Assembly (NCBI GenBank): GCA_025765615.1
Contig: JAIVFJ010000037.1
Coordinates: forward strand, 124,001-188,000
Length of the DNA stretch: 64,000 nt
Source of the DNA: Zopfochytrium polystomum
Lineage: Eukaryota > Chytridiomycota > Chytridiomycetes > Chytridiales > Chytridiaceae
Reading direction: 5' to 3'
Below the pieces are notes generated by a model, which searched no databases, was not told the origin of the DNA, and worked only from the letters and a program-made list of their open reading frames with translations. Positions 2,252 through 59,453 of the stretch are shown here, one piece after another. Positions within the stretch are counted from its first letter, which is position 1. Each line of letters starts with the position of its first letter. The position numbers were made by a program, and so were the translations under genes.

Positions 2252-5200
2252 TCAGCCAAGCAGTGGGACAATGAAATGCAACCTCACGTCAAAGTATTTG
2301 ACCCGACCATGGTGTATTGGATTCATAGCAATAGCTATGGTTGAACGATTGTCTTCATAAACAGTAGTGGGCTTATTTAAATCCATACCCAGCTCCTGGA
2401 AGAGCATTTGTAGCCAAATTGCCTCTTTGATGGCCTCAGTAAGGGAGAAGTATTCCGCCTCAGTTGAGGACAAAGCGACAACTGATTGTTTCTTGCTGTA
2501 CCATGTAATAGCACCCCTGCAAAGCATGAACACATGCCCTGACCTCGACTTGCGTCCATCCTCTTCAGCATAGCTGGCATCAGCGTAGCCATGTGGTTCA
2601 TCCCACTCTGGGTAAGAAATACCCGCAGCTTTCTCTACCTCTGGGAGCGTTGCATTGGTGATGCATGTCATCTGGGAGTCTCCTTTCTGGTAGAAAAGTC
2701 CAGGATCCCAGGTAGCGCAGACATTTCGTAGCAATCTGTCAAGCGCAAGGGAATCTGAATGGGTTGGAGCGGACTGGTATTGTGCAAGTGTATTCACAGC
2801 ATACGCAATGTCAGGGCGCGTCAAGTTTGCAAGGTAAGCAAGTTGCATGAGTGTGCTTCGGAAGTATTCCGACTCTTTTTGTGGAAGTTTTCCAGAGTCC
2901 ACATCGTGTATCCATGTCGTGGACATGGGAGTTGCTTTGATTTTGACAGGTAAGCCTTCATCATCACACCAGTAGTTTGCTTCCTCCAAGACATGCTGTG
3001 TGTAGTTTTTCCGTCCAATAAAGATTTCATCTTTGATTTTCTCAACTTGGATGCCAACAGCAACTTTTGGGTTGAGGTCCTCGCGGATTTTGAACTTTGA
3101 TTTGATCAGAGAAAGAATTTTGGCAATTTCTTCTTCAGTGTGACTGAAGATGAGGATGTCATCTACGTATAGAGTGATGATGGTCTTGACCTTTCCATCA
3201 GGGTGCCTTTGCACAAAGACACAGTGGTCAGTCTTCAATTGCGTAAATCCAATTTCCACTAGGAAGTTGCGGATTGTTTTGTACCACTGTCGACCAGACT
3301 GGTGCAGTCCGTACAGACTCTTCCTGAGTAAACAGACAAGAAGTATCCCGTCTGCACCACGTATCTCAAAGCCTTCTGGTTGTTCCATGAAGTTTTCAAT
3401 GTCCAGTTTGGCGTTCAAGTATGCAGTTTCGACATCAAGGCCTGCAAGTATGAGGTCAAACAGCAACGAGATAGCAAGGATTGCCCTTATGGAGGAGCTG
3501 CGGACGACAGGGGAGAAGGTCTCATTGTAGTCCTGACCAAAGATCTGAGTGTAACCCCGACCAACAAGGCGAGCCTTGAAGCGTTCAAGGTACCCTTCAC
3601 TGTCAAACTTGTAGGCAAAAACCCATTTGGGCTTGAGTATCTTACGCCCTTTAGGTCGAGCCACTAAGTCCCAGACATGCTTTGACGTGATTGAATTGAT
3701 CTCTGAGAGTTGAGCTGCCTTCCAATACTTTGCAAAAGGAGAACGCATGGCCTCTTTATGCGAAGCAGGGAGTGGCGGTAAGTCCCGCTGGTGGATCCTT
3801 TCTGTTGGATATGCTGTGACTTCCTCCGGCTCAAGCACAGTGTACGCTTTGAGCGTTTGGTAGAGTTCACGAAATTGTCCCCGTGCTATTCGTAGTTTAC
3901 GATTTCTTGCAGTTAAAGCGCGGAGTGTTTTCCGACTGTAAGTGGAAGGACTTGTGGCAATTGATGGTTTTGTTCGTAGTTTACAAAGGTTTGCCTTCAA
4001 TGCCAGGTAGTCACGTAAACCTGATGGCTCTCGTGGTATGATTGGGGGATTTGTTGCCTCCCCTGTTGACTCTGGCAAAGCTAGAATGTCAGGGGAAGTT
4101 GAGCGCTCCCTAGGAGGGATTTCCTGTTCATCAGGTATTGACTCTGGTTCAGAATCAGAAGCGTCGTATAGCATACCCGGCTGTAGATCTCCCCCCTGTG
4201 ATTCTGCAGGTGGTACATCGTCTTCTTGTGAGTCAGGCAGAGCGTCAGGATGTGCCACATCTGGATCAGTGGACATAGCGGGGGTATGCAACGAGGAGGA
4301 AAGATATTGGAAATCCTGAGCTGTGGGTTGGACTGGTCCCCATTCCTTCAAGCGGGAGTCATGAAGGAACTGTCTCCAGTTCCGCACAATGCCAGGAAAA
4401 ACATTTTCGTGAAAGGAGACATGGAAGTGTTCCGATATTCTCTGGGTTTTCAAGTCATAGACAACTGGAAGAGTGTTTCCTTTATACCCTAAGAATATGC
4501 CTGGTGCCCCTTTGTCAGGATGTTTAAGCGTTCGCTTTTCCTTTGGGATACGGTGGATAACCAAACAGCCAAAGGTGCGGATGTGATCAACATTTGGCTT
4601 TTCACCGTACCAAGCTTCGTAAGGTGTTTTCTTAGTGTAAGAGTGGTAAACCCTGTTCTTGATGTATGCTGCGTAGCGGACTGCATACACAAAGAAAGAG
4701 TGGGGCAATCGTGACTCTAAGAGCATGCAGTGTGCCATGTCTTTGAGAGTGTTGACCTGACGTTCTACCAGCCCATTGAATTCCTTGGTGAATGCAGGAC
4801 TAGGTTCTAAAACAATAGGAGGGTGCCGAGTATTGGCCCAAGTTTTGAATTCTCCATCTTTGAAGATTTCCCCCCTGTCACAGCGCACAGATGTGATATG
4901 TTTGCCATGTTGTTGTTCAAACCTTTCGATCGTAGACCGGAATCTTGTGGGCGCGTCGGACAAAGAGTTGAGGAACTCAATGTCAAGCCAACGGGTTGAC
5001 TCTTCCACAACCAGTTGCCAATGTTTTTCACCATGGTGTCCACGTGCGGGCAGTGGGACAGCATCAGTGTGTAAACGACCAAGCAGTGTGGTGTTTGGTC
5101 TGGAAGTGGAGTGGATAGGCGAAGCTTTCAATTTCCCAACATCACGTGTCATGCAGGGAATGTCATGAATGAGGAAAAATGAATGACCAACTTTATTCAG

Positions 5201-6263
5201 ATTTGACCAAGTACGCTTCAAAGAAGATAAAGACAGGTGACCAAATTTCTTGTGAAGAGCTCGGACTGCTTCAATGTTCTGAGGGTTTGGTAAAGGGTCT
5301 GGGTCAGTTTGACTTAAAGTTGGGGTTGCAGTTTGCAAAGGAGCAGTTTGCTGTTGCGACTCACCTGGGGCGTCCCCCGATGGAGTCGGCGCGTCCCTTC
5401 CAAGTTCTGCCCTGTTGAGACCATTATGTCCCGTCAGAAGAGAAGGGTCCACAACATAAACATTTCCTGTGTCCCTGTGAGCAATGGTAAAGTCTGAACC
5501 ATGTACCCGAGGGTGCAATAGGGCTGTGTCTGCTGTGAAAGTCACGTTGTGACCTGTCTGCCGCACGATTTGCTGAACTGAGAGTAGAGTGTCTGAGAAC
5601 TCTGGCACATAGAGTGAGTTCCTCATGATGAGAGCTCTTCTGTTAACGAACAGGGTGAAGTCGCCCACTCCAGTGGCAGTTGTAAAGCCGTCAGCTGTTT
5701 TGATCTGCTGGGAGGTGGGCCGCAAGTTTGTGAAGTGCTCTTCACAAGGCGACATTGTCCTGGAAGCCCCAGAGTCAAGGATGACCTGGTGTGGGTTGCT
5801 GCCAGCAAGTCTTGCCATCAGCGCAGTCTCGTAGATGCGGCGGTAGGTGACGTTGCGGTAGAGGAAACGCCCAGATTCGTACATCACTTTGTAGCCGACG
5901 TTTGAGACAATGTTGTCAGTGATCCAGTCTGGATCCATTCTGCTGTCAAGAAGTGTAACTGTGAGTTCCACTTCAAATTCCTCCTCCACCTCAACAGCCT
6001 GGCATGTTCCAATTTCAAACTCCCGTGCCGCAAGTGCCCTTTCTACTGAAAGGAAGTCGTCTAGAGCTGAAGTGTCTGCAAGGCGCGCAGCACCCTCAGT
6101 ACTGAACTCCAACATTTCGACGTCTTCTGCTTCAGTAGGCGGTGGTGGAGTATCCATCCTGTAGCATTTGTGGGGAGGAGAATCCTCAGAGGCTGCGCAA
6201 GAGGCTTGGTGGTGTTCTTTAGCGGCCACCTCACGTGCAATCTTGGCAGTCTCAGTAGCTTTC
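2252..6263 (-). pseudogene. A1: family A Ty1/copia gag-pol, interrupted and deleted
   Basis: The long minus frame carries the C-terminal part of gag, an aspartic protease (LDSGAS), integrase (zinc-binding HHCC region, then the D,D,E core with LHTDA, RCDRGE and NGLVERQ), reverse transcriptase with YVDD, and RNase H. It differs from the other A copies in several ways. About 300 bp joining RNase H to the 3' leader is deleted near 2270, so the protein ends early in RNase H. One zinc-ligand Cys of integrase is Arg (CMTRD instead of CVTCD). At its upstream side gag is split by the D1 insertion at 6264 with target duplication CTTTC and resumes at 12744. It is not functional as it stands. Confidence 0.9.
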
Positions 6264-8478: not shown

Positions 8479-8986
8479 CTTTAGGGAAAATTAGTTCAGA
8501 TTTTCTAAGATACCCTACACACAAAAGAAAGCACAAGAGAAAAAACTCTGCACAGGTGAGCCTTCCGCACGATGCTGGTCTGGGCTCCCCCCAGTACCCT
8601 ATGAGGAGAGGCGACCACTCCCCCATACACAGCTTGCCCTCAACGCTTTCCCCTGCGTCTCGCCTGGGCACATCAGGAGAATAACTGTCTCCTGGTTGGT
8701 ACTCCTTGCAGAATGGGCTCCCTGCTCAGGACTCCACCTCCTCTGACACAGGTCCAGGCCGCACTAGCCTACAAGCTGGGACTTCGGTGTTCGTGGGCCT
8801 TCGGTTGATTTCACATTGCCGGTCTGCCACATCAGTCCGGCCTTCCACAGTCATGCCTATAGTGCTCCCAGTAAGGCCCACTGGGGGTGACGTTAATTGC
8901 AGTAGCACGGAATCCAACCCGTCGTGCCGTCACCTCCAACACCAGAGCTGTACACCGTTATCCGATTCACTTTCGCTGTGGATTAC
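8479..8986 (-). other. Intron-like structured insert in D1 pol
   Basis: Minus-strand sequence of about 508 bp starts GTAATC after ATG at 8986 and ends CCTAAAG at 8479, with AACTAAT just before the acceptor. Its core of about 430 bp is close to the insert in element B, although the surrounding coding sequence is wrecked. It occupies the same place, between the integrase and RT parts. Confidence 0.65.
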
Positions 8987-11915: not shown

Positions 11916-12514
11916 GTTGTTTTCTCAGGACGATTATGTGTGCCAAGTTTGAAGGGATTTCGTTGGATTTTGGGTGTGTTGTGAAGGTGGTGTTGCAGCA
12001 GATGAAAAGTTGGTTTGTTAGCTTGGTGTGTGTCAGGTAGGGGGGTGGTCGTTGTCTGCAATTGGGGACAAAAAATCAAAAATTAATGGTGAGGGTTGGA
12101 GGTAATCTGGTGACCCTGAATGGAAAAAGGCATCGGTTATCACGAAGGAGAGTGATTTTGGGGTGCCGTTGGTGGCAGTCGTGTAGTCCCGAAGCAGGCC
12201 TTTCTAATGATAGCTTGGGATCGGCTGGGGGAGGTCTGGAAGGCGAGCAAATTGAGGTTGAAGTTGGAAAAGTAGGCGACAACTTTGGAGGCGGTGGATA
12301 CGACGTAGGAGCGTCCGATCCGAGATCAGGTGCGTTCGTTGGAAAGAGGAGATCAAGAGCTTTCCGATGATAGTAACGAAATTGCTGTACGATGTCTGTA
12401 GCGCCTGTGATCGCTCCACGAAGTTGGCAGATCTGAAAAGCGTACAACCGCTTCTACTGATTGGATTTTGTTGAAACCAAGGGGGAAGTGATTGGGATGG
12501 GTAACAGTTTTGTA
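11916..12514 (-). other. D1 5' leader
   Basis: About 600 bp between the 5' LTR and gag, homologous to the leader of B (24902-25501) over its whole length. It carries no coding frame that I would support. Confidence 0.75.
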
Positions 12515-13983: not shown

Positions 13984-16900
13984 GTAATAAACTGTTCCAT
14001 GCAGATTGGCACATAAAATATGCTGTTGAGGTATGTGTTACTGATATCAACTGTGTCAGTGTCCCAGTTGATTCAGGCAGCCATTTCAGTGAGTTAACAG
14101 GGACTATTGATTTGGACAAGAGGTGAGTGAGTATTCTGAATATAAATGCAAAGACACTAAGTGGGGCCCTTAGCCATGAGCCATAGAAGCACTCAATGCT
14201 GGTGTCTTCACAAAGTTTGACCTTGTAGACCCATTTGTTCCAGATTATGTTGACATTGGTGGGTTGTTCAATAACTTCAAAGGCTGTCTGCACATATACA
14301 AGGGTCTGCGCAGGGTGTGCTTGTCAATCACAGGGGGCCTGAATGTGTACACTTTGCAAGGTTGTCAGATGGTGGCGACAGCTGATGTGGTTCTGATGGA
14401 ATTTCGCCTGAAGGTAAGAAGTTTGTGGTGGATTCCAAATTTCAAAGTGTTATGTTTGTTTTGTGGTTGTAGAGAAATAGGATCTACTTGCGATGGTTTT
14501 AACTTTAAGAAACTTTAGGGAAAATTAGTTCAGATTTTCTAAGATACCCTGCACACAAAAGAAAGCACAAGAGAAAACTCTGCACAGATGAGCCTTCCGC
14601 ACGATGCTGGTCTGAGCTCCCCCCAGAACCCTATGAGGCAAGGCGACCACTCCCCCATACACAGCTTGCCCTCAACGCTTTCCCTTGCGTCTCGCCCAGG
14701 CACATCAGGGGAATAACTGTCTCCTGGTTGGTGCTACTTGTGGAATGGGCTCCCTGCTCAGGACTCCACCTCCTCTGACACAGGTCCAGGCCACACTTGC
14801 CTACAAGCTGGGACTTCGGTGTTCGTGGGCCTTCGGTTGATTTACATTGCCAGTCTGCCACATTGGTCCAGCCTTCCTCAGTCATGCCTATAGTGCTCCC
14901 AGTAAGGCCCACTGGAGGTGACGTTAATTGCAGCAGCAGGGAATCCAACCCATCGTGCCGTCATCACTTTCGCTGTGGATTACCATGTGGTTGATACTTT
15001 TTACCAATTCCATTTTAACTTCTTCCAATTCTGATTGCTGAAGTTGAATGCTGACGGAATGGAGGAAGTTGTTGTTTTCTGGAGTGACTCTGCTGTGGGG
15101 AATGCTGATGCTTTGTCTGACTTTGTTGAGGCTGCAGAGAACTGAAAGCAATTCCAATTCAACTTGTTCAACTGGCAAAATTCAAGTTCAAAGATGGTTC
15201 AAGGTGACTGGTGACTGAATGGAGCAAAGTGGTGATGTTGGCGTTGTTTCTGAAGCTGATCTGCAGTAATGAATGGTTGAAGGTTTTCCTGAATTTTGCT
15301 GAGACTGCTGCATATTGAATATTTTGACGATGTGGTAATTGTGACTGTTTGACTATGAGGTGGTTGATTTTTGTTTTTGTTGGTCTAGAGTGGAGAATAA
15401 AGATAGAGATGAAGTTAGTGGAAGTAAGCATTAGTGGAGTTAGTATATCCAGATGTTTCTTGCTTGATGATGAATTGCCTTTAGTCTCCAACTGATGTTG
15501 TGGTGGTTAATGCTGGTAGAAGAGTGTTAATGCAAGCAAAGGGAACAAAGACTTAGCCTTATGTTTTCTACTCTGCCTCATTAAAGAATCAGCATAATGT
15601 TATTGTCAAGTCTAACATCCAAGCCAAAAAAACAAAGGTTCTGGTCAGATTACAAAAGTTGAGGGCAATCTCTGAAGCTTCGAGATCCTGGTTATGCTGG
15701 ATGAATGAGGTATTCAAAGAACATAGCTGTTCTGGAGTGACTCTATTAAGTGGAATTTGAAATCTAGAGTCAGTTAGATTTGGTTCTGCAAAGGAAGAAT
15801 CTTAGATGAGAGTGGAACTTCAGTAATCTTGCAAGGTTGAGCTTGTTTATAGTTTGCTCTGAAAAAGTGTTAGTGTTGAGTGTCCAATAAAGATAAATGT
15901 TGATACTCCTCGGAATGAGCCAAAAGGTATTTCAAGGAACATTGTGTTTTGTCACAGAAGTTGGTTAGGATAATTCATCAGAGTGATGCAATTGAGGTGA
16001 GGACTCAGGTATGGCTGTGGAATTTCCTGTGATATAGGACCTGGTGTAGTGTTAGTATGTCTGTGTATAAAAGCTGAAGTCAATATGTGTGAGTTAAGGT
16101 CCCTAGCCAGAGTAAGCCCAGCAATAATAGTGTATTCCATAGTTTGACTCCTAAGTCCAGATTCATTTGGCTAAAATGGATAGAGTGTTTTCCCAAGCCA
16201 GCAGCCCAGCACCAAGAAGACCATGCCAAGTTGGTGCCAATCCATGCTGAGACCGCTTTGCAACTCTGTGCTGATGATCATCGTTCACTTATTCCAAGCA
16301 TCCTTCATCTAATTTGGCAATATAGTGCTGAGGATCATCTTTCACTTATCCCTAGCATCCTCCCACCTAAGTGGAAGATGATGTTTGATGTTGCACTGGC
16401 AAAAACGGTAAGAGGATGGTTAAACTACTCAACCAATCCTGGTTCAATCAATGAATGGACAGCAAATTGTCTTTGGCTGAAGTTATGTGAGCAAAGATAA
16501 AGAGAGGCTTGATGTAACAGAGTCCAAAGTCATGAGGAAATTGCACAAGGTTGCCATGGTTGTGAGAGTTGGCACTTGCACAACTATTGGTCATCCCAAT
16601 CACTAATACGTTTGATTGTGAGAGTTTCAGTGTGGTTGAAATCACTCTGATCTCAAAAGGTGGCCATGTCAATGATAATTGTATCGGGGAATCCAGAAAT
16701 TGAACTACCTTCTCCATGGGTTGATAGGCGAGAAAAACACCATATCATTAAATCCTAATTTGTTATGCCCTGTTGAAAATGAGTAAATATTATTAAGAGG
16801 GCTCGGGGGCAGTTGTTAGAGGTGCAGGTCTCCAAAAACTGAAATGCCTGTGTTGATGTTCACGGAATGATGAATCATTACTGACAGGAGACTGCATGGC

Positions 16901-20223: not shown

Positions 20224-20754
20224 GTACGGCAGCGAAAGTGAATCGGATAACGATGTACAGCACGAAGTGTTGGAGGTGGCGGCACGACAGGATGGACTCT
20301 GTGTTACCGCAATTAACGCCATCTCCAGTGGGCCTTACCTATGAGCACTAAAGCCGGGGGACCAATCGGATGAGTGAGGGCGGCGACTGGCTCTGTGACT
20401 GCAGGCGCACTCTCAGCTGGGAGTGACGTGGGTGGCGCAACCGAAGGCCCTGGGCCATACTGACCCTGCGGGAGCTAGTGTGGCGTGGACCCAAGTCAGA
20501 AGGGATGGATGCCTGTTTGGGGAGCCCATTCCGTAAGGAACACCACCAGGGTAGATAGGTCCCTTGGCGCCTGACGTTATGCATTGGGGAAAGTGCGGAA
20601 GGCGGGCTGTGGAGAGAGGAAGAGAAGGCTCTCTGGCACGGGGTGTCCCGAGCCGCATCGTGCAGAAGGCTCACCTGCCAATGATTTTTCTATTTCCTTT
20701 TTCTGCATCCTAATACTCACAAACACCTCTGTCATTTTACTAACACCACCAAAG
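20224..20754 (+). other. Intron-like structured insert in C pol
   Basis: 531 bp from GTACGG to ACCAAAG, with the sequence TACTAAC a few bases before the acceptor. Removing it joins Gln (20221-20223) to His (20755) in phase 0 in the same frame. Conserved blocks shared with B include AGCGAAAGTGAATC, GCAATTAACG, GCAACCGAAGGCCC, GGGAGCCCATTCCGT and GAAGGCTCACCTG, separated by divergent segments. The arms 20272-20281 and 20317-20326 pair over ten bases. Confidence 0.75.
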
Positions 20755-24035: not shown

Positions 24036-24662
24036 TTAGACTAAGCGTTGTGCTGATTTGAGCGTGGGCACCACGCTTACACCTTGGAGGTCAGCGAGAC
24101 TGCAAATTCCCATCAGTGATGCAAGCTTTGCATGTTGAGCTGCGGGAAGAGCTTTGGTGAGAAGGTCGGCAATCATCATGTCCGTTGGGCAATGAATGAG
24201 TTGAACCTCCTTTTTCTCCAAGTGGTCCCGTATGAAATGCAACCTCACGTCAAAGTGTTTGACCCGACCATGGTGTATTGGATTCATAGCAATAGCTATG
24301 GTTGAACGATTGTCTTCAAAAACAGTAGTGGGCTTATTTAAATCCATACCCAGCTCCTGGAAGAGCATTCGTAGCCAGATTGCCTCTTTGATGGCCTCAG
24401 TAAGGGAGAAGTATTCCGCCTCAGTTGAGGACAAAGCGACAACTGATTGTTTCTTGCTGTACCATGTAATAGCACCCCCGCAAAGCATGAACACATGCCC
24501 TGACCTCGACTTGCGTCCGTCCTCTTCAGCATAGCTGGCATCAGCGTAGCCATGTGGTTCATCCCACTCTGGGTAAGAAATACCCGCAGCTTTCTCTACC
24601 TCTGGGAGCGTTGCATTGGTGATGCACGTCATCTGGGAGTCTCCCTTTTGGTAGAAAAGTCC
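24036..24662 (-). CDS. A-outer gag-pol, C-terminal block (RNase H)
   Basis: This is the last part of the 1752-residue A-outer polyprotein, ending in TAA at 24036-24038. It encodes copia RNase H with GYADASYAEEDG, SSTEAEYFSLTE and the EDNRSTIAIAMNP motif, then the LLTKALP motif at the C-terminus. Its upstream end is cut at AGTCC by element B; the reading frame resumes at 31180. The RNase H residues expected for catalysis (Asp, Glu, Asp) are present. Compared with A1 it keeps the complete C-terminus. Confidence 0.9.
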   Translation of the reverse strand, partial: GLFYQKGDSQMTCITNATLPEVEKAAGISYPEWDEPHGYADASYAEEDGRKSRSGHVFMLCGGAITWYSKKQSVVALSSTEAEYFSLTEAIKEAIWLRMLFQELGMDLNKPTTVFEDNRSTIAIAMNPIHHGRVKHFDVRLHFIRDHLEKKEVQLIHCPTDMMIADLLTKALPAAQHAKLASLMGICSLADLQGVSVVPTLKSAQRLV

Positions 24663-24901
24663 TGTTAGTTTTGGGTCTTTTGGTGTAAGCAGTGTGCAGG
24701 AGCTTTGACCTGATACTGCTCTGCAAGGATGACTTGCAGCATTTTGCAAGTGATGGTCCTTGTAACAGTTTTGTATAAAGACAAACACAAGACTGACAGA
24801 AGCCAAGATCAACCCCCCACCACCACCACCTTCAGTAGTGTACTCCACCCATCACCACAGCAGCACAACCCATAGACAATCCAGCCCAACGAAATCTTTC
24901 A
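24663..24901 (+). repeat. B 5' LTR
   Basis: 239 bp, TGTTAGTTTTGGG to AATCTTTCA. It contains a TTTTGTATAAAG TATA-like sequence about 120 bp in. It matches the 3' LTR at 30941-31179 and the solo LTR at 51906-52144. Confidence 0.95.
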
Positions 24902-25501
24902 TACAAAACTGTTACCCATCCCAATCACTTCCCCCTTGATTTCAACAAGATCCAATCAGTAGAAGAGCCTGTACGCTTTTCAGATCTGCCAACTTTGGGG
25001 ATCGATCACGGACGCTACAGACATCGTACAGCAATTTCGTTACTACCATCGGAAAGCTCTCGATCTCCTCTTTCCAACGAACCCACCTGATCTCGGATCG
25101 GACGCTCCTACGTCGTATCCACCGCCTCCAAAGTCGTCGCCCACTTTTCCAACTTCAACCTCAATTTGCTTGCCTTCCAGACCTCCCCCAGCCGATCCCA
25201 AGCTATCATTGGAAAGGCCTGCTTCTGGACTACACGACTGTCACCGGCGGAATCCCAAAATCACTCTCCTTCGTGATAAGCGACGCCCTTTTTCCATTTA
25301 GGGTCACCAGATTACCTCCAACCCTCACCATTAATTTTTGATTTTTTGTCCCCAATTGGAGACAACGACCACCCCCCTACCTGACACACACCAAGCTAAC
25401 AAACCAACTTTTCATCTGCTGCAACACCACCTTCACAACACACCCAAAATCCAACGAAATCCTTTCAAACTTGGCACACATAATCGTCCTGAGAAAACAG
25501 C
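24902..25501 (+). other. B 5' leader
   Basis: 600 bp between LTR and gag, without a supported frame. A primer-binding site should start at or near 24902 (TACAAAACTG), but I cannot match it to a tRNA. The D1 leader is homologous throughout. Confidence 0.7.
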
Positions 25502-26817
25502 ATGACTACTGACTCAACCAAGTATGTTGCCAAGTCCTTCAGCGTCTTGGAGGGACCAGAGAATTTCGGTGACTGGTTGGAGGATCTTACAGCAGAACTC
25601 TCCAACAAAAATGTCGACTTACGCCACTGCATTGACACAAGTCACATCAACGCAGAGCAGAATGATGCAATTGATCCACTAGACCTCCGCGACACTGGAA
25701 CCTGTCTCATCAGAGATGGACCATTCCAAGGACAGAGATTCCAATTGGTGCCTCCGCCTCGTGGACAAGAGAAAGTAACTTGGTTTCCTGGTACACAGAA
25801 CCAGAATGCACATTGCTGTCTAATTATTCGCCGCCACATCTCTCGAGCCCTTCTCACCCAAATCACACCTGGTCGAAACTTTGCTTACGAGTTGGTTGGC
25901 GAATTGGGAATAATTTGCCGCACAGCAGACCAGGGACTCGCAAAGGAGATCATTGACGACTTTGAACGCATCAAAATGGAACCAACTGAAGCCTCAGATG
26001 CCTTCATTACCCGATTCACTGAAGCATACCATCGAGTTGACAGCTTTGCAAAATCAGCAGCTGGAGAACTTCTCCATCGTATCCGCCCTTTCCAAAAAGT
26101 TGTTCGAATCTTTGTTGGTTCACTGAACCAAAGCCTATTGGACATGGGGATAGGAAACGTTTTTCTTGTTGTCGGCAACCCAGCTCCTGAGATAACAAGT
26201 TTAGCCAAACTAATCTCACTCTTCAAACAAACTGTTCGTCAAAACAACTATGATAAGCGACGCATCGAGCTGGCAAATCAAAGAGAAGGGGACACCTCCA
26301 CTGCAGCCCCTGAGGTCAACGCACCAACTGCAAATGTTGCCCAAGTTCACTATACCCACCCCCGAGGCCGTGGAAGCTATCGACCGCTCCAACCAAGGCC
26401 ACAGCCATACACCCCACGACCCTATGGTGGCTTTGGCAGAGGGTCCACTCCACTCTCTCAAGGAAGTTGGCGACCCCAGCAGATGGGATGGCGACTCCAG
26501 CAAGTGGATGGCGACCACAGCAACCATTCCGTCCACACCAGAGCCGGGCATCTGCAAATGTCACCTGCAACAATTGCAGTGGTCGTGGACATTATGCAAG
26601 GGAATGTCCTTCAGCTGCAAACGTGCAGGAGCAGATGCCTCAGCAATCCCAGCAGGCACTCCTAACATACAGTGCACCAGCAGACAGTGATTGGGATGAA
26701 CAACAGAGTCAGCAGTTTGCAAACGAACAGCAGTTATGGGAAGAGACTTACAACTCACAGCTTGGCGGCCAAAGTGACGACAACCACCAACAGGATTTTT
26801 GGATGGCCCGGGAGTGA
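25502..26817 (+). CDS. B gag with CCHC zinc knuckle (frame change near 26500)
   Basis: Gag starts at ATG 25502 (MTTDSTKYV) and reads for about 330 residues of capsid-like sequence with an FGDWLEDL motif near the start and an Arg/Gly/Pro-rich tail. Near 26480-26520 there is a short tandem repeat (TGGCGACCCCAGCAG, TGGCGACTCCAGCAA, TGGCGACCACAGCAA) whose second unit is one base shorter. The coding sequence moves to the -1 frame there. In that frame follow the zinc knuckle CNNCSGRGHYAREC and an acidic Gln-rich tail, ending with TGA at 26815-26817. The shift may be a mutation or a recoding site. Pol begins in yet another frame, overlapping this end. Confidence 0.85.
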
Positions 26818-28463
26818 TCCGGGCATTTGCAGTCAACATTCCACCTCCTGTTACTTCCTTTCCTCTTCTTATTGATAACGGTTGCAATGTTACTACTCTT
26901 CGTGATTTCTCCTTCTTTATCCCATCAACCTTCAACAACCAAAAATCCAGCATGCGCATCGCAAAGGAAGGCCCAGTTCTCAACTGCGAGGGCTCAGGCG
27001 TTGCACGAATTCCTCTTGCAAACAACATCACTCTCATTATTGAAGGCGCGCAGTTTGCTCCAGAATGCCCAGTCAACCTTATTGCCGACAGGGACCTCCA
27101 GCTATGCGGTTACTATCACTTGGCACGAGACCTCCAACCAGGTGTTATTCACCGCAGCAGTCATGAAGAAGGTGACCCAGCAGTTCTTCAAATGATCCTT
27201 CGGCACGGTCTCCAGTGGTTCCCAACTGCAGCAAACCCAACCTTCAATTACAGCACTCAATTTCTCGCCCATTGCGCCAGCAGATATTACAACTTTTTCA
27301 CGTCAGCAGAACCTGCAGACACACACAGCATTCGTGCAGCATTTCTCAACAGCAAAAAACCAGACACTCGCCGACTGCACCAACGTCTAGGACACATTCC
27401 CTATGCTCGACTTCGTTCCATGAAGGAACGACGAACCTGTGCTGACTTTCCAGACATAGACTTAGAACTGCTTGAGGACGAGTGTAAGGCCTGTATTATT
27501 GCAAAGCAGACACGTGCCTCTATTCCCCACACAGATCCTCCGGACAAGCTACCTGGGGAACACTTGGCGTTTGACCTTGTGGAGGTCAAACCCAAGTTCA
27601 GGGGGCAGTATGGCTTTGCCCTCATTGCCATTGACTATGTCAGCAATTATATCTGGTCAACCAACCTACGACGGAAGTCTGATGCTTTACCAGAAGCCAT
27701 CAAAATCATTCAGCAACTCCAGACTGTGCGAGACGTTCAGGTTAAGTCAGTTAGGTTTGATGGGGGTGAACTTAAGTCAACTGCCTTTGAACGCTTCTGT
27801 GCCTCTCGTGGGATACGGGTTGAAGTCAGTCCACCACACACACCAGAGCTCAACGGCAAAGCAGAACGTGCAGTTAGGACAGTCATGGATGTAACTCGTT
27901 CACTCCTTCAGCATGCTGGCTCACCTTGGTCTTGGTGGGGTTATGCTATTCGACATGCCGTGGACATCATCAACACACTGCCAGTTCTCAGTCGTGGTTT
28001 GCTTTCACCGGTTGAAATGCTACTTGGCTTTCCTCCCTGCATCAGCCACTTTAGGGTTTTTGGCGCTGGTTGCCTCTACCATGTGACAGCCAAGGAACGC
28101 GGCAGCACACACCAGTACAAGAAACTGGCAGAACGAGCACGACCAGCAATATACATTGGCAATATAGGCCGATCCATTGCCCGGCTCATCGACATCAACA
28201 CTGGTCGCGTTATCACACATCGCCTCAACGACCTCACTATCGCCGAAGACAGCTTTCCCAAACTCAACAAATCAGATGCTGATGATGACAGTTCAGAACT
28301 ACAGCATCACCACACGCCCTTACTCTCAGCTGACGAACTTCAGGAAACCAACAGCAACATCAAGGCCCTCCTTCGCGAAGCAAACGTACACATTGAACAG
28401 CTACCTGAGCCAGAACCAACACCAGTGGCCCCAGTGGAATTGGTAAAAAGTGTCACCCCTCAG
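26691..28463 (+). CDS. B pol, first part: protease and integrase
   Basis: Frame 0 is open from 26691 and overlaps the gag end by 127 nt. No ATG starts it, so expression by -1 frameshifting is likely; a T5 run at 26796-26800 lies in the overlap. The protease active-site motif reads IDNGCN rather than the usual D-S/T-G. Integrase has the HHCC zinc domain (LHQRLGHIP, ECKACIIAKQ) and the D,D,E core (AFDLVEV, RFDGGELKS, NGKAERAV). The part ends in phase 0 at CAG 28461-28463, followed by a GTAAGC donor. Without splicing, translation would stop at TAA 28554-28556. Confidence 0.88.
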
Positions 28464-28961
28464 GTAAGCACAGCGAAAGTGAATCAGATAACGATGTACA
28501 GCTCTGGTGTTGGAGGTGACGGCATGATGGGTTGGATTCCGTGCTACTGCAATTAACGTCATCTCCAGTGGGCCTTATTGGGAGCACTATAGGCGTGACT
28601 GAGGGAGACCGGATCGGGGGGTAGACCGGCAATGTGAAGCAACCGAAGGCCCACGACAACCGAAGCCCCAGCTCGTAGGCTAGTGTGGCCCAGACCTGTG
28701 TCAGAGGAGGTGGAGTCCTGAGCAGGGAGCCCATTCCGTGAGGAGCACCAACCAGGAGACAGTTATTCTCCTGATGTGCCCAGGCGAGACGCGGGGGGTA
28801 GCGTTGAGGGCAAGCTGTGTATGGGGGAGTGGTTGCCTCACCTCATAGGGTACTGGGGGGAGCCCAGACCAGCATCGTGCGGAAGGCTCACCTGTGCATT
28901 TCATCCTTGCTTACTTTTGTGCGTTGGATATCTGAGACTGTTATAACTAATTCCTCCAAAG
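28464..28961 (+). other. Intron-like structured insert between integrase and RT of B
   Basis: 498 bp, GTAAGC donor, AACTAAT near the end, CTCCAAAG acceptor. Removal joins Gln to Ser in phase 0 and restores one pol frame, matching the join found independently in C. The core is GC-rich with conserved blocks. Arms 28512-28521 and 28557-28566 can pair over ten bases (one G-U), enclosing a smaller GCATG...CGTGC hairpin. Further local hairpins include CAGGAGA...TTCTCCTG and CTGGG...CCCAG. It could be a spliceosomal intron, an intercistronic structured spacer, or both. Confidence 0.75.
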
Positions 28962-30680
28962 TCCCTACAAGATAAAACAATGGCAGACACACCCACTAGG
29001 GATGCCTCACAGGCTTCTCCACCTCCAGAACCACCTCCACCAGAACCACCTCCTCATCACCAACATTCACGTTCACCATCACCTGACAACTCAGCCAAGC
29101 GTACGCGTTCTGGGCAAACCTACCTCACAAGCACAACATGTCCCGACCCCCAAACTCGTGCAGAAGCCATGTTGGGTAAATGGTCCAAGGAGTGGATTGC
29201 AGCAGAGCAGACTGAGATCGATGCCCTTCGCACTTTAGCAGCCTTTGAAGTTGTGGAACGGCCCACCAACATCAACGTCGTGCAGAACAAATGGGTCTAT
29301 AAGGTCAAACTTAAACCAGACGGCAGCATTGAGCGCTTCCGTGCACGGCTTGTGGCTAAGGGCTTCACTCAACGTTATGGCATTGATTTTTGGAATACTC
29401 ACTCTCCTGTTGTCCGAATCAACAGTCTTCGTTGGCTCATTGCCATGGCGGCTGCAAACAACTGGCACACTGCTATTGTCGACATCAGCAACGCGTACCT
29501 GAACAGCATGCTTGATGTGCCCATTTACATGGAGCAGCCAGATGGCTACCGCAGTGATGGCAAGGTATGGCTACTGAAGAGAGCTGTTAATGGTATCAAG
29601 CAAGCCGGCCGGTGTTGGTACCAAGAACTGATTAGCCACCTGAAGTCGAATGGATATCAGCAAAGCACAGCAGACCCCTGTATCCTCTTCCGTCAAGTGG
29701 ATGGAAAAGTCATTTTCATTGCCATCTATGTTGATGATATTTGTTTCTTTGGGGATTCTGGGGAGATCACCTTTGCCATCACACTGCTAAAATCTCGTTA
29801 CAAGCTCCGCGAAATAGGAACAATCAAAACCATCCTCAATATGCAACTGGAACACCGCCACAACGGAATCTTCTTGCACCAGAAAGCCTATATCAAGGAA
29901 TTACTTCAACGCCATGCCAACACTATCAACAATCGCACTGCAGTAACTGCCCTTCCCAGTAGTCTCAATCTTCACCCACGTGGGATCGACGAAGCAGCTG
30001 CAGACCAGAGACTGTACCAGGCAATCCTTGGCGGCATCAACTACCTTGCAACACACACGCGGCCAGACCTTGCCCCAGCAGTTTCCTACCTTGGTGCCTT
30101 CAGCAAGGACCCTAGCAAGCAACACATGAAGATCCTTATTCGGGTTCTCGAATATCTCAACAGTACTAGTGAGTATGGTTTATTCTATTCTTGCAACTGC
30201 ACAGATATAGCCGGTTACTCCGATGCTGCCCATGGTGTCCACTCAGATGGGAAATCACAGCTTGGCTACTATGTTCTATTTGGAGGAACAGCTATTAGTT
30301 GGACATCTGTTCGAAGCAGCACTGTCATGCTGTCACCGCAGGAAGCTGAATATGTAGCGGTGTCTGAACTGGGACGAGAACTTAAGGCACTGTCCCAACT
30401 CTATTCAGCACTTCAACTTCCGTCTCCCACTCCTCTTGTCATCTACACTGACAACAGCGGTGTGATCAACCTCAGTTCAAATGATCTTTACACCAATCGG
30501 TCAAAGCATATCATGGTAAAGTATCATTATATTCGAGAACTTGTGAAACAAAAAGTAGTACGGCTTGAGTGGATTGCTGGAGGAGAACAGCCTGCAGACT
30601 ATATGACGAAATCTCTCTCAGCTGCTCTCAGTGAATACCATTTGAGTCGTATTGGCCTTTGTTTCTTCTCTTTCCTCTGA
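28962..30680 (+). CDS. B pol, second part: reverse transcriptase and RNase H
   Basis: The frame opens right after the acceptor (SLQDKTMADTP...) and could also start at ATG 28980. A Pro/Glu-rich linker (EPPPPEPPP) leads into RT with NKWVYKVKL, RFRARLVAKGFTQ, DISNAYLNS and the catalytic YVDD. RNase H follows with GYSDAAHG, SPQEAEYVAVSE and YTDNSGVINL. It ends at TGA 30678-30680. The homologous linker codons upstream of ATG 28980 in both B and C favour translation from a spliced mRNA over internal initiation. Confidence 0.92.
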   Translation, partial: SLQDKTMADTPTRDASQASPPPEPPPPEPPPHHQHSRSPSPDNSAKRTRSGQTYLTSTTCPDPQTRAEAMLGKWSKEWIAAEQTEIDALRTLAAFEVVERPTNINVVQNKWVYKVKLKPDGSIERFRARLVAKGFTQRYGIDFWNTHSPVVRINSLRWLIAMAAANNWHTAIVDISNAYLNSMLDVPIYMEQPDGYRSDGKVWLLKRAVNGIKQAGRCWYQELISHLKSNGYQQSTADPCILFRQVDGKVIFIAIYVDDICFFGDSGEITFAITLLKSRYKLREIGTIKTILNMQLEHRHNGIFLHQKAYIKELLQRHANTINNRTAVTALPSSLNLHPRGIDEAAADQRLYQAILGGINYLATHTRPDLAPAVSYLGAFSKDPSKQHMKILIRVLEYLNSTSEYGLFYSCNCTDIAGYSDAAHGVHSDGKSQLGYYVLFGGTAISWTSVRSSTVMLSPQEAEYVAVSELGRELKALSQLYSALQLPSPTPLVIYTDNSGVINLSSNDLYTNRSKHIMVKYHYIRELVKQKVVRLEWIAGGEQPADYMTKSLSAALSEYHLSRIGLCFFSFL

Positions 30681-30931
30681 TTCATTTTTTCTATCTGTGA
30701 AGTTGTTTTCTTCTTTGTTCTTTTTCATTACTTTGACTCATTTTCTTTTACCTCTGAAGTTCAATATGTGCCCCCATCCATTTTTGCTAGTGTGGTCTGT
30801 CCTTTCTGTTCTGCCATCCGATGGCCAGTCATACCTGTTTGTGATTCTTCTTTCTCCGGTGTACGGTTTCCTTAAGTTGACTATGGCTTAAGGTTTTCCT
30901 CCGTGCCGGCCTTTGCTCCTGCCCACAGCTT

Positions 30932-30940
30932 AGGGGGGAG
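30932..30940 (+). promoter_or_regulatory. B polypurine tract
   Basis: AGGGGGGAG lies directly before the 3' LTR, the expected place for plus-strand priming. The same tract precedes the C 3' LTR (51483-51491) and, on the minus strand, the D1 3' LTR (6493-6501). Confidence 0.85.
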
Positions 30941-31179
30941 TGTTAGTTTTGGGTCTTTTGGTGTAAGCAGTGTGCAGGAGCTTTGACCTGATACTGCTCT
31001 GCAAGGATGACTTGCAGCATTTTGCAAGTGATGGTCCTTGTAACAGTTTTGTATAAAGACAAACACAAGACTGACAGAAGCCAAGATCAACCCCCCACCA
31101 CCACCACCTTCAGTAGTGTACTCCACCCATCACCACAGCAGCACAACCCATAGACAATCCAGCCCAACGAAATCTTTCA
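30941..31179 (+). repeat. B 3' LTR
   Basis: 239 bp, apparently identical to the 5' LTR. AGTCC follows at 31180-31184, then A-outer pol resumes. Confidence 0.95.
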
Positions 31180-32851
31180 AGTCCATGATCCCAGGTAGCG
31201 CGGACATATCGCAGTAATCTGTCAAGCGCAAGGGAATCTGAATGGGTTGGAGTGGACTGGTATTGTGCAAGTGTATTCACAGCATACGCAATGTCAGGGC
31301 GTGTCAAGTTTGCAAGGTAAGCAAGTTGCATGAGTGTGCTTCGGAAGTATTCCGACTCTTTTTGTGGAAGTTTTCCAGAGTCCACATCGTGCATCCATGT
31401 CGTGGACATGGGAGTTGCTTTGATTTTGACAGGTAAGCCTTCATCGTCACACCAGTAGTTTGCTTCCTCCAAGACATGCTGTGTGTAGTTTTTCTGTCCA
31501 ATAAAGATTCCATCTTTGATTTTCTCAACTTGGATGCCTACAGCAACTTTTGGGTTGAGGTCCTCGCGGATTTTGAACTTTGATTTGATCAGAGAAAGAA
31601 TTTTGGCAATTTCTTCTTCAGTGTGACTGAAGATGAGGATGTCATCCACGTATAGAGTGATGATGGTCTTGACCTTTCCATCAGGGTGCCTTTGCACAAA
31701 GACACAGTGGTCAGTCTTCAATTGCGTAAATCCAATTTCTACTAGGAAGTCGCGGATTGTTTTGTACCACTGTCGACCAGACTGGTGCAGTCCGTACAGA
31801 CTCTTCCTGAGTAAACAGACAAGAAGTATCCCGTCTGCACCACGTATCTCAAAGCCTTCTGGTTGTTCCATGAAGTTTTCAATGTCCAGTTTGGCGTTCA
31901 AGTATGCGGTTTCGACATCAAGGCCTGCAAGTATGAGGTCAAACAGCAACGAGATAGCAAGGATTGCCCTTATGGAGGAGCTGCGGACGACGGGGGAGAA
32001 GGTCTCATTGTAGTCCTGACCAAAGATCTGAGTGTAACCCCGGCCGACAAGGCGAGCCTTGAAGCGTTCAAGGTACCCTTCACTGTCAAACTTGTAGGCA
32101 AAAACCCATTTGGGCTTGAGTATCTTACGCCCTTTAGGTCGAGCCACTAAGTCCCAGACATGCTTTGATGTGATCGAATTGATCTCTGAGAGTTGAGCTG
32201 CCTTCCAATACTTTGCAAAAGGAGAACGCATGGCCTCTTTATGTGAAGCAGGGAGTGGTGGTAAGTCCCGCTGGTGGATCCTTTCTGTTGGATATGCTGT
32301 GACTTCCTCCGGCTCAAGCACAGTGTATGCTTTGAGCGTTTGGTAGAGTTCACGAAATTGTCCCCGTGCTATCCGTAGTTTACGAATTCTTGCAGTTAAA
32401 GCGCGGAGTGTTTTCCGACTGTAAGTGGAAGGACTTGTGGCAATTGATGGTTTTGTTCGTAGTTTACAAAGGTTTGCCTTCAATGCCAGGTAGTCACGTA
32501 AACCTGATGGCTCTCGTGGTATGATTGGGGGATTTGTTGCCTCCCCTGTTGACTCTGGCAAAGCTAGAATGTCAGGGGAAGTTGAGCGCTCCCTAGGAGG
32601 GATTTCCTGTTCATCAGGTATTGACTCTGGTTCAGAATCAGATGCGTCGTATAGCATACCCGGCTGTAGATCTCCCCCCTGTGATTTTGCAGGTGGTACA
32701 TCGTCTTCTTGTGAGTCAGACAGAGCGTCAGGATGTACCACATCTGGATCAGTGGACATAGCAGGGGTATGCAGCGAGGTGGAAAGATATTGGAAATCCT
32801 GAGCTGTGGGTTGGACTGGTCCCCATTCCTTCAAGCGGGAGTCATGAAGGA
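31180..32851 (-). CDS. A-outer gag-pol, middle block (integrase end and RT)
   Basis: This block encodes the linker after integrase (rich in Asp, Ser, Glu and Pro) and the whole RT, including PKWVFAYKFD, ETAYLNAKL and the catalytic YVDDILIFS. The frame is continuous with 46971 at AAGGA and with 24662 at AGTCC once the target duplications are counted once. It is open throughout. Confidence 0.9.
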
Positions 32852-55370: not shown

Positions 55371-58300
55371 CTATGCAGTTGGTCCAGTGATATTGTACTT
55401 GAGGACGTTTTGGCTGACAGTGGCGTCCACTCCGTTCGCCTCCTGTCGCCGAATGCTCTTGTAATCACTGTTGGCTTCACCACACGATACAAGGATTAGG
55501 CCACTCTCCTTAATAGTCCGAATTAAGGCTGGCATCTGGATCTGTTGGCAGAGGTTTAGAGTACAAATATTGAGGCGAAGCCAGAGTGTTGGTTGTAGAG
55601 ACTGACACATACCAGTGGCTTTGCTTCGCAAATAACTCCCAGGAACTTGTTTCTTCCGTGCGAACCTCACTGCCTGCTTGATGGAAGTACACCTGCGGTC
55701 TGTTTCCCGAGAAGTCGGAATCCAATGAGCAGCTGACATACCAACCACACTGCCGAGGCCGTCACCAAACCCGCAGCGTGTGGCAAAGAAACACACCGTA
55801 GTTGGGTTGCTTCCAGGTGATGGCTGTGCAAACAGCAGGATTGAAAGATGAGAAAATAACTGGCCGCGAGGTGGCAGTGGTGTGGTCGTACACAGATGTG
55901 AGTACTCGGTCAACGAATTTGTTTACAGAGGGAACATCACAAATGTGCAGGCGCTCCCGCTGCCAGGGCGTGGGATATTGGAGATCGAGGCTGACACCAA
56001 TACGCGGTGGAAGATTCTGTTAACCGACCAAAGACAATGTTACTAAACCCCATTAACACACCCAATTATTCTCTCACAAACCTCCAGCAATTCATCCAGG
56101 GTGAAAAATGCATCAGCGATCACCCTGGGCAGTTCCGCACGGCTGGCCCGTAAGCCACCTTCCCCTGCCCTGAGGACAGGCTCAGATGACCAGAATCCAT
56201 CAGCACGACCATCAAATCCACTCATCAGACCATATTCCTGGCTACGACGCTGATGCTGGCTGTTTTCCTGTTTTTTGAGACCGGTCAAACAGTTTACGAG
56301 CTTGTGTATGGGTAAGGGAAGTTATAGGAAAGCCATGGGAGACTCTGCTGATGGAGCTGCCAGTTTCATCCTCTTCATCAAGGTCGAAGAGGTCCAGATA
56401 CCAAGAGTCATAGATAACTGGAACTCCATCCCTCGTCATCTGGACAGAAAGGTGGATGTATTTCTTCCGCCATTGAGGGGTAGCAGTGATAAGCGACTGA
56501 ATGCTGTTGTCGCCGTGGCCCTTTTTATCACTAACAACCTGAACAATGCAAAAAGTTTTAGGTTTTGTGCCACAATGCGCCAATGCGTGATCTTCATACC
56601 TTTGTGGACTTCCAATAAGTCTCGATTTTACCACCAATCTTCACCCCAGGATGATTTAAGGCTGACACAATTGAGAACCCAAAACTGAGCTCACCAACAA
56701 CCTTTAGGTGACTGTCAAAGAAAGGAGCCACAACTCTTTCTTCATCCCCACTCCCAGCGCCACCTTTTCCAATAGTGAATTGTGAGCTGAGCACTGCTGC
56801 GCGGCCAAGGATTTTGGTGCCAAAGGTCGGATAATTTCAAAGTAGAGGGAAAACTCCGCCAGGTTGTCCACAAGAACGTGTATGACTCCGAATCATCTGT
56901 TAGAGGAAGAATGACATTATAGGGGATAGAATCAGGCTTGCTGCTGATAACCAGGCGGTAGGATGAGAGCTTTTGAGAGCCAAAGAGCTGAAGGAGGATT
57001 AGAAAATCTTTGAAGAGGGCGTACCACCATACCTTGACTGGAGAGGAATTGAGAGAGTCAGCAAACCCATTCAGGTTGACCTCAACATAGTATTGCTTGT
57101 CGAGGTAGTTGTGCCCACTGTTTAAGGTTGTAAGAATCACTAATTGTTCACAAGAGACCAGAGAACTCAACTAAATGCGGAATGGGATCATTGGGGGTGG
57201 TAATGACAATGATGGGATCTCATCTAAGCTCATCTCAAATTCAAAACCGCCTGCAGCTGGTGTCACAACGGTGTTCTCTGAGAACAATGCACTTGGCGCC
57301 ATGGGCTGCAGGGGAATGTCCATGGGAAGTGCGTCTGCAGTCCCACGATCAGCTAACATGATTGGTCCATCACTGCCGAGGCTACTGACACTAAGATCCG
57401 AGCTGTCCACTGCCATTGCAGTGGCACCACTGCTGGTTATTATAGGAATGCCAACCACTGCAGACAAGGAACCAAGCGATGACGACAAGGCCGGGGAAGC
57501 TGAAGTGACAGTCGCAGCAGCAGTGGGAGATAACGCAGAACCTGGTGACTTCATCACTGGCTGTGAAATTTCCAACAGCTTAGCCACATCGACATGACCG
57601 TGGTAGAGCGCATAGGTCCAAGGCAACCAGCCATCCTCATCTGTGACATCAACGCGGCAGTGGGCATCAAGAAGTACTTTAACACAGGAGATATGACCTT
57701 CAGACGCTGCGAAAAATATTGGGGTCCATCCACTGTAGCTGTCTGTCTCATTAACATCTGCACCACTGCGAATGAGTAGGGCGCACAACTCTGCATGGCC
57801 TTCACGTGCCGTTAGATGAAGGGAGGGAAGATTGTTACCCTCTGTGATTTGCTGAGGGTGAGCAGACGAGGCTGGCGTGGTGGCATTGTGCAACGATGCG
57901 CCTTTTTCCAAAAGCAAGGTAGCGATGGCAAGGTGCCCGTATTGGCAAGCAAGAGAGAGGGGGTTCAGTGTCGTTGCTGCAGGCGGATCTAAGGCAACAC
58001 CGTGCTGGAGAAGCAGCTGGACACACTTAGTGTGTCCGCCAATGATTGCATATGTCAAAGGTGTATTGTCGTCCACATCGACAGCTGAAGCAGCAGCTGC
58101 ACTCGAGTACTGGGACAACAGGAATAAGAGACAGTCACTGTGGCCATACATAGCAGCGTAATGGATCCCGTAGCGATCATAAATGTCAACAGCGTCAATA
58201 TTAGCCTTCCCACGTGAGATAGCAAGGGTCAGAACATCAAGCCTGCCATGAATAGCAGCTTCATGTATACAGGTACGGTTACTGATGTCGTCCATGAAGT

Positions 58301-59453
58301 CACAATTAATAGTTACATCTTCAGAATCAAAAAGAGCTGAAAGCATGTCAATTGGTCCTTCATCACATGCCCGAAGAAAAACGCGAGAAAGGAGCTCTGG
58401 ATCCTCTTCGCGGAGCGAGCTGGCACTTGTTCCAGATTTGTGCGTAAACTTTTTCAAGCTATCCTTCAGGTAGTCAACACGGCTCTCAGTGATTGCAGAG
58501 AGAAAATCATTCTCTGCTTCCATCAACGGATCCCAACTCCGCTGTTGTGGTTGGAGTGGTTCGACCGTGATTTTTATTGGTATTGAATCTGTTCGTGACT
58601 GTGCGGCGTCCAGGAGTGCGTCGAGTTCGGCAATATTCATAGTTACAACATCTGTGAGCTCCGTCAACACGTCCCGGTTAAAGCATGGCTGGATCACCAC
58701 TTGGCGCGACAAGTAAAACTCCTTAGTCGTTGACTTGGCCCGTTTGTCCCACTTCTTCAGAATTTTTGTGAAGCCTGTCGCATTAATCTCAACATAGCTT
58801 TGCAACTTCGCAAGATCGCGTTGGAACTGAAGGAATGCTTCCCTCAGTGATTCAAGGTTGGAGCTGGTTTTTATGGCAACACTTCTGCTCTGAAGAATAC
58901 GCTTTTTGTCGAGGAGTGATCGCTGACGAACCTTGAACTCTTGCTCTTTTTGTAGGTAAAATGAGTTGACCTGGGAACAAAAAATGGAAAAACAAGTCAA
59001 TTTGCAATTTGCTTCGAGGAACGCAGCCAGCTGTTCAACGTAGACCATGTAGCAATCAAGATGGCACACAATCAAGTGTACCATGGAACAGTGAGGTCAA
59101 TCAGAAGCACCAACCTTCTCAAGTTCTCGTTCTAGTTTGAAAAAGAATGCTGTCTTGAGTGCCTGAAACTGCCTGGTGGTGTCTGCATGGTTGCTGTTTG
59201 TCGAACTACTGACAATCGAGATAGTTGTCTGGGAATGAGAGTGCGAAGATGGAGTAAGAGCCTCAACGGAATTTATGATCTTCTTGAGAGCCTTGTAGTT
59301 TAAGTGATGTGCGCCGCCCCATTCCGATTGCTGGCTCTGGATATACTTGCCAAACTACAGGGGAACCGAGGAAAGCCGCGGGAAGTCGTTGAGAGTCAGC
59401 AACCGCAAAAAGTACGAGAAACTCATGCACTAGATAAAGCAGCCTACCTTCAT
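55371..59453 (-). CDS. PHO81: PHO81-like SPX-ankyrin-GDPD protein, six introns, five one-base frameshifts
   Basis: In budding yeast Pho81 inhibits the Pho80-Pho85 kinase in phosphate signalling; SPX domains bind inositol pyrophosphates. Exons: 59453-59448 (Met-Lys), 59354-59115, 58970-57172, 57117-56600, 56538-56082, 56016-55613, 55541-55371; all introns are GT-AG, 54-144 nt. SPX is residues 1 to about 200 (MKFGKYIQSQQ, YKALKK, LKKWDK), six or seven ankyrin repeats about 280-560, then a Ser/Pro linker, PPPMIPFRIYGHNYLD and a GDPD-like domain (TRDGVPVIY without the catalytic His, VIFSSFNP, ALIRTIKESGLIL). After allowing for indels near 56875, 56829, 56273, 55788 and 55651, all exons join in frame to about 1197 residues. 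All five are in homopolymers, so they may be assembly errors or recent decay. Confidence 0.88.

Follow-up and report, generated by a model that had tools for sequence, protein, structure and literature searches.

An intron-like insert bearing a conserved RNA structure between integrase and reverse transcriptase in a chytrid copia-type retrotransposon family

A clade of copia-type LTR retrotransposons in the chytrid Zopfochytrium polystomum carries an intron-like insert between the integrase and reverse transcriptase (RT) parts of pol. The insert is retained across three subfamilies, has transposed recently with its element and is conserved in sequence and in RNA fold. We consider it probable that this insert is a spliceosomal intron in phase 0, with unspliced RNA being copied and spliced RNA making RT, and that its body likely serves as a cis-acting signal. 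Retroelements use one transcript as genome and messenger, and introns are normally lost on transposition. Here, a family with an insert motif at 261 places keeps an insert whose removal would be needed for RT, the reverse of splicing that yields Gag only, and its genomic and messenger RNAs would be distinguishable by one splice junction.

Results

Anatomy of the element

The window (the whole 64,000-nt stretch of DNA analysed, C37:124001-188000) belongs to a host assembly of 80.16 Mb in 761 contigs, which was searched for relatives. The element is a Ty1/copia LTR retrotransposon, with integrase before an RVT_2-type RT, TG..CA LTRs and a 5-bp target duplication (Table 1). As its LTRs are identical and AGTCC stands on both sides, the window copy is a recent insertion. 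In the upstream pol ORF, which continues to 28556 without splicing, SH3_retrovirus scored above the Pfam cut-off and rve and gag_pre-integrs slightly below it. The preliminary description of this DNA had placed an insert at the same point of pol in four window copies, named B, C, D1 and D2; the four are real, and their matching to the inserts of Table 1 was made here.

Table 1 Coordinates of the subfamily I element and of the related inserts in the window
Feature	Position	Strand	Basis or remark
Whole copia-type LTR retrotransposon, subfamily I	24663-31179	+	Nested in another, minus-strand copia-like element
Target-site duplication AGTCC	left 24658-24662, right 31180-31184	+	Same 5-mer outside both LTRs
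5' LTR, 239 nt, TG..CA	24663-24901	+	Identical to 30941-31179
3' LTR, 239 nt	30941-31179	+	Identical to 5' LTR
gag ORF	25502-26665	+	ORF listing; no Pfam match
Upstream pol exon, protease-integrase part	26799-28463	+	Pfam; protease assigned by eye
Insert, intron-like, 498 nt, GTAAGC...AAAG	28464-28961	+	Sequence
Conserved structured RNA body, GTGAATC / GGCTCAC closing helix	28479-28891	+	Consensus fold
Branch-point-like AACTAAT, putative branch A about 11 nt before acceptor end	28945-28951	+	Sequence
Downstream pol exon, RT-RNase H part	28962-30680	+	Pfam RVT_2, E 1.8e-53
Subfamily II insert, 531 nt, GTACGG..TACTAAC..AAAG	20224-20754	+	
Subfamily III insert, defective copy, 508 nt, GTAATC..AACTAAT..AAAG	8479-8986	-	
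Subfamily III insert, second copy, 471 nt, internally shortened	14513-14983	-	

Several further features of the window were observed. The 14 nt after the 5' LTR (24902-24915), at the position of a primer site, are perfectly complementary to 24762-24775, a stretch inside the LTR that shares bases with a TATA-like TATAAAG. A subfamily III copy has this post-LTR sequence too, at 12514 (minus strand). The arrangement is reminiscent of the self-priming of Tf1-type elements, which would be odd for a copia element. A gag zinc knuckle, CNNCSGRGHYAREC (within 25502-26830), lies in a frame that differs from those of the gag and pol ORFs, and the window copy has two frame changes ahead of pol. Seven copies of a repeat unit of ~1 kb lie 4-10 kb apart over ~12860-51260, amid nested repeats that surround a second, minus-strand copia-like family.

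Splice signals and reading frame

At the junctions, CCCCTCAG ends exon 1 and is followed by GTAAGC, the insert ends in ATAACTAATTCCTCCAAAG and exon 2 opens with TCCCTACAAGATAAAACAATG. Translated separately, both flanks lie in phase 0 in subfamilies I and II. The intron signals and phase 0 described earlier are thus present in both autonomous subfamilies; the restoration of the frame claimed for B and C applies to two of the four window copies, the minus-strand pair being defective with non-coding flanks. Splice signals were surveyed in 81 motif-bearing rows from fetched loci, which overlap and so represent fewer copies; three rows came from subfamily III. The donor GT was present in all 81 rows and the acceptor AAAG in 75 of the 75 in which an acceptor was located (none was located in six). 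The branch-like motif reads AACTAAT or AATTAAT in I, TACTAAC in II and AACTAAT in III; the AATTAAT variant, found in 14 rows of subfamily I, was counted against the intron reading. Judged by eye from one host gene in the window, host introns use similar signals: its introns are 93 and 144 nt long, with the donors GTAGGC and GTTGGT, CTGAC- or TTGAC-like branch sites and the ends TAG and CAG, neither of them AAAG. This gene (57171-59453, minus strand) has an SPX-like start, near which both introns lie, and ankyrin repeats, and resembles Pho81-type proteins.

Coding constraint in the flanking exons ends at the insert. Between subfamilies I and II, 100 of 144 codons are identical at the end of exon 1 (mismatches by codon position 36/28/89) and 111 of 147 at the start of exon 2 (28/23/83), third positions holding most of the mismatches (89/153 and 83/134). 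Constraint changes kind at the donor: bases are conserved there, but I and II differ in length by one base, so that the frame is not kept. Within the subfamily I insert the upstream frame meets six stops, the first at 28554, and in the subfamily II copy L029 it stops five codons in, with several stops present in II. Insert lengths of 498, 531 and 551 nt were found, of which the first two are multiples of three and the last is not. Stop-codon read-through was rejected on these grounds: the stops are too many, and phase fails in the 551-nt subfamily II copies and in subfamily I copies with single-base indels. Phase alone rules read-through out only for the 551-nt length, and the stops argue against it in all copies. 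In subfamily II copies L026, L028, L029 and L030, 20 extra nt, a direct duplication, lie between the fold described below and the branch point; since L029 is 551 nt long and the window II copy 531 nt, the spacing from fold to branch point tolerates variation.

The preliminary description had offered separate translation of RT from ATG 28980 as an alternative. A version of this idea, in which the insert stays unspliced and contains an internal ribosome entry site, would account for a large conserved structured RNA between two ORFs, with that ATG following soon after in I. We regard it as unlikely. At 28980 subfamily I has ATG, II has ATT and III has ATC, so that no downstream start codon is conserved, and the next in-frame ATG in II lies ~70 codons in. 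The exon-2 frame is conserved near its start (DKT.A.TP.RD), so that the RT N-terminus is kept though the ATG is not, and coding conservation begins upstream of the ATG, at DKT. In the rows examined, the GT and, where found, the branch-like motif and AG are also kept. A non-AUG start would escape the argument from the ATG. Translation of RT from 28980 is accordingly disfavoured, and we retain the reading as a spliced intron.

Retention of the insert across the genome

A 29-base insert motif near the donor was found at 261 places in the 80.16-Mb assembly at ≤3 mismatches, and its reversed control at none; the earlier count of four copies, correct for the window, was thus a great understatement for the genome. 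Donor-spanning patterns matched 61 places for subfamily I, 88 for II and 139 for III (controls, 0), counts that include truncated copies and in which at least two three-mismatch places of the I list recur in the III list. The RT of subfamily II is ~77% identical to that of I. The insert is identical over all 498 bases at five loci, the window locus among them; together with the identical LTRs of the window copy, this indicates that the insert survives recent transposition, which supports the retention noted in the preliminary description.

Copies found through the insert cannot test its absence, and loci were therefore also fetched by RT similarity, a set not selected by the insert. This search gave 83 matches (77 of 2004 candidates scored), the best 30 of which became loci L009-L038. 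All 30 carry the insert motif, the insert being truncated in L024 and L025. Junction patterns lacking the insert had no match in the assembly at ≤3 mismatches. Queries of 70+70 nt of joined flanks, for which a close insert-free copy should have ranked first, gave only half-matches, all ending at the junction, among the matches listed (40 of 114 candidates for I and 40 of 180 for II). The genome search that had been suggested for members with and without the insert thus found many with it and, among the loci and matches examined in the subfamilies, none without it.

More distant relatives do have a continuous pol. The 801-nt locus L078 on contig C70 has a single open frame across the integrase-RT linker and no insert; the minus-strand copia family of the window has a continuous 1325-aa pol ORF (2252-6229), also without insert; and in the Chytriomyces confervae protein P0001 integrase and RT are joined, in a gene model that may itself have been spliced. 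The preliminary description had held that such relatives would mark the insert as private. They exist, but the insert is not private, as three subfamilies share it. With two other copia families of the genome having a continuous pol, a single gain in a common ancestor of the three subfamilies is the probable origin of the insert. Three C. confervae proteins are among the best seven outside RT matches; RT relatives were absent from the viral contig collection searched, and the insert motif from the viral contigs and other genome contigs searched.

The insert might instead be a separate mobile or self-splicing element lodged in pol, such as a group I or II intron or a SINE-like sequence. It is structured, discrete and absent from the other copia families seen, as such an element could be. 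Against this, the motif is exact at 82 of the 261 places, and at the first 30 of these in contig order (L039-L068) the exon-1 tail lies just upstream in 30 of 30, so that an independent mobile piece was not seen. No Rfam model reached its gathering score anywhere in the window; with the limit relaxed to E 10, 28300-29100 gave three matches, all at chance level (E 2.2-6.6). The ends of the insert, as we take it, do not fit group I or II introns. We consider this origin extremely unlikely. One subfamily I copy, L071, passes into the sequence of another repeat shortly inside the insert, and a place on contig C555 has the same variant motif as L071, GAATCTGATAACG.

A conserved RNA fold in the insert

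The preliminary description had treated the insert as a simple intron and left out that most of it is a conserved folded RNA; given this conserved body, an intron that contains a cis-acting signal becomes likelier than a plain one. Over 417 aligned columns, inserts of I and II share 68% identity, rising to 85% in the first 100 nt, and third codon positions beside the insert are 38% and 44% identical (144 and 147 codons). A plain functionless intron, carried because only unspliced RNA gets copied for other reasons, would require no role for the insert if genomic and messenger RNA pools are separate, as passages of PMC3735527 describe for BARE, which keeps them apart by promoter, cap and poly(A). 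The excess of conservation over the adjacent third codon positions and the conserved fold speak against this, and we judge it very unlikely.

The conserved RNA spans some 413 nt of the subfamily I insert; we hold its predicted fold to be real and the details of that fold to be provisional. The alignment comprised 32 distinct insert bodies of 41 distinct sequences, five having been dropped for want of a 3' end and four being duplicates after trimming. Its consensus structure comprises 20 helices with 99 pairs, and 99.1% of cells are paired compared with 40-46% when partners were slid. In 200 column shuffles the consensus energy averaged -70.7 (sd 6.7) and never fell to the observed -98.0 (z -4.1), and a three-row test with local shuffles gave z -3.4 (1 of 300 as low); neither kind of shuffle preserves dinucleotides. 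Folds of single sequences are not unusually stable (whole insert z 0.27 with dinucleotides kept, and -0.7 to -1.9 in simple shuffles).

Compensatory change was also assessed. Between a I row and the II row L028, 25 of 25 differing pairs are still paired, 14 by two-sided change; for L063, the figures are 24 of 26 and 12. Refolded shuffled alignments had a mean of 9.3 two-sided changes (sd 2.7), and 15 of 200 reached 14. The 17 two-sided pairs were therefore discarded as strong proof of the fold, as shuffled alignments yield nearly as many, and the claim of a fold rests on the consensus energy. A fold predicted from I and III only left 102 of 132 cells paired in II, compared with 49-64 when slid; among changed cells the same fold kept 24 of 54, compared with 21-33 of 53-68, which is no gain. 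The reverse test, a fold from II applied to I and III, was weaker (91 of 140 cells versus 50-61). For covariation these comparisons offer, in effect, a single split, with I and III on one side and II on the other.

The closing helix pairs 28479-28485 with 28885-28891, and in I 15 nt lie outside it to the donor and 70 nt to the acceptor end. This geometry suggests a narrower alternative, in which the fold serves splicing only: it would compact a 500-nt intron to an effective 85 nt, and its stability would set the splicing ratio, with no packaging signal involved. The 15 and 70 nt left outside the helix suit this idea, given the host introns of 93 and 144 nt, and it accounts for conservation in I and II. 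A simple helix would be enough for compaction, yet more than 400 nt are conserved, and the subfamily III copies described next bear on the same point. We find a role in splicing only rather doubtful.

A defective subfamily that keeps the insert

In subfamily III the RT region is broken and the flanks of the insert are not coding. The window III copy gave no integrase match, and in L069 and L070 the 1.2-1.4 kb preceding the insert had no long frame. The insert body is nevertheless kept, which a fold for splicing only does not by itself explain. Successive stretches of the insert up to the end of the fold are 94, 86, 91, 95 and 100% identical between III and I. On the upstream side, identity is 79% in the last 30 nt of exon 1 and 44-49% further upstream (49% in the preceding 170 nt); on the downstream side, it is 69% in the linker after the fold and, over the opening 200 nt of exon 2, 57%, and the local match spans 28435-28981. 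Changed pairs were kept in 9 of 13 cases, only slightly more than the 6.5 expected (sd 1.6).

Stretches of 570 nt are identical between L070 and the window minus-strand III copy, so that III has also moved recently. Retention of the insert in III fits a cis-acting signal exploited in trans by a parasite. Relative to I, the subfamily has likewise preserved its LTR, the beginning of gag (both 91-97%) and the part from RNase H to the 3' LTR (~95%), and retention of the insert could thus partly reflect recency or recombination.

Discussion

Proposed mechanism

We infer the following course of events for splicing, for the choice of the packaged RNA and for the fold. Most simply, the ancestor of a copia-type clade would have acquired the intron in a single event, and the spliceosome would remove it from part of the RNA. 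The unspliced RNA would encode only Gag-protease-integrase, translation stopping inside the intron, and would be the template for reverse transcription; as the copied form, it would pass the intron on. The spliced RNA would join RT-RNase H to integrase and give the full polyprotein. The closing helix starts 15 nt after the donor and in I ends 70 nt before the acceptor end; it would bring the donor close to branch point and acceptor, and the fold could also cut the effective intron length to 85 nt. Most likely the fold would act in cis as well, for example in packaging or dimerisation, marking the unspliced RNA as genome. Present sequence data fit packaging and splicing-control roles of the fold without telling them apart.

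A more specific proposal, which we hold only tentatively, is that the intron contains a packaging or replication signal, the unspliced RNA being the genome, the spliced RNA the sole source of RT and III a parasite that keeps the signal. On that proposal III, the most numerous subfamily, lacking integrase and a working RT, would be carried by the others. In retroviruses the packaging signal psi lies in an intron, and only unspliced RNA becomes genome. If the proposal is true, the fungal copia element would provide an independent parallel, in pol, to this placement. The conserved RNA of more than 400 nt would be of interest in its own right, being without an Rfam counterpart.

Comparison with known systems

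Among close relatives by domain order, C. confervae P0001, L078 and the minus-strand family share the arrangement of the element and have integrase and RT in one open frame with no insert; the RT is 45-46% identical to that of P0001. Retained introns are known in copia-type elements of plants, EVADE (EVD) and other Arabidopsis Ty1/Copia, according to the sections of PMC8892269 drawn on here. There, two RNA forms, one of them the spliced shGAG RNA, are reported to set protein ratios, and nuclear retention is reported for EVD (PMC8892269); by analogy, two RNA forms may set protein ratios in the chytrid element too, such as the Gag-integrase to RT dosage for which the preliminary description had suggested a possible control. 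The logic differs. Unspliced EVD RNA encodes the whole Gag-Pol and splicing leads to Gag only, whereas here the unspliced frame ends after integrase and RT would need splicing; the same sections mention no large conserved fold of the kind found in the insert (PMC8892269).

Splicing with exclusion of the spliced RNA from replication is likewise described for BARE1 of barley and Drosophila copia, and as of 2013 only copia and BARE had been shown to splice in superfamily Copia (PMC3735527, in the passages used). BARE2 is a defective partner packaged in trans, as may hold for III here. In copia and BARE, splicing removes or disables pol and yields Gag only, the opposite of what we propose, and their introns, one 104 nt long and the other about 2950 nt, lie at other places than the insert (PMC3735527). 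A complete Gag-Pol encoded by unspliced RNA, a feature of copia, BARE and EVD, is not found in the window element. The retroviral psi, placed downstream of the major splice donor (PMC5035971), offers a likeness as structured intronic RNA lost on splicing. This likeness is one of placement within an intron; psi lies in the leader and the insert in pol, and a packaging role of the insert is predicted.

The search, made in the open-licence PMC literature, turned up no copia element that an intron interrupts at the integrase-RT boundary; the parts of PMC5014426 and PMC6875170 covered describe no such intron. That Copia elements can contain introns, and that their unspliced RNA can serve as genome, is already known. 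New within the literature searched are the place of the intron, the reversed logic that it would impose on expression of RT, and the conserved fold.
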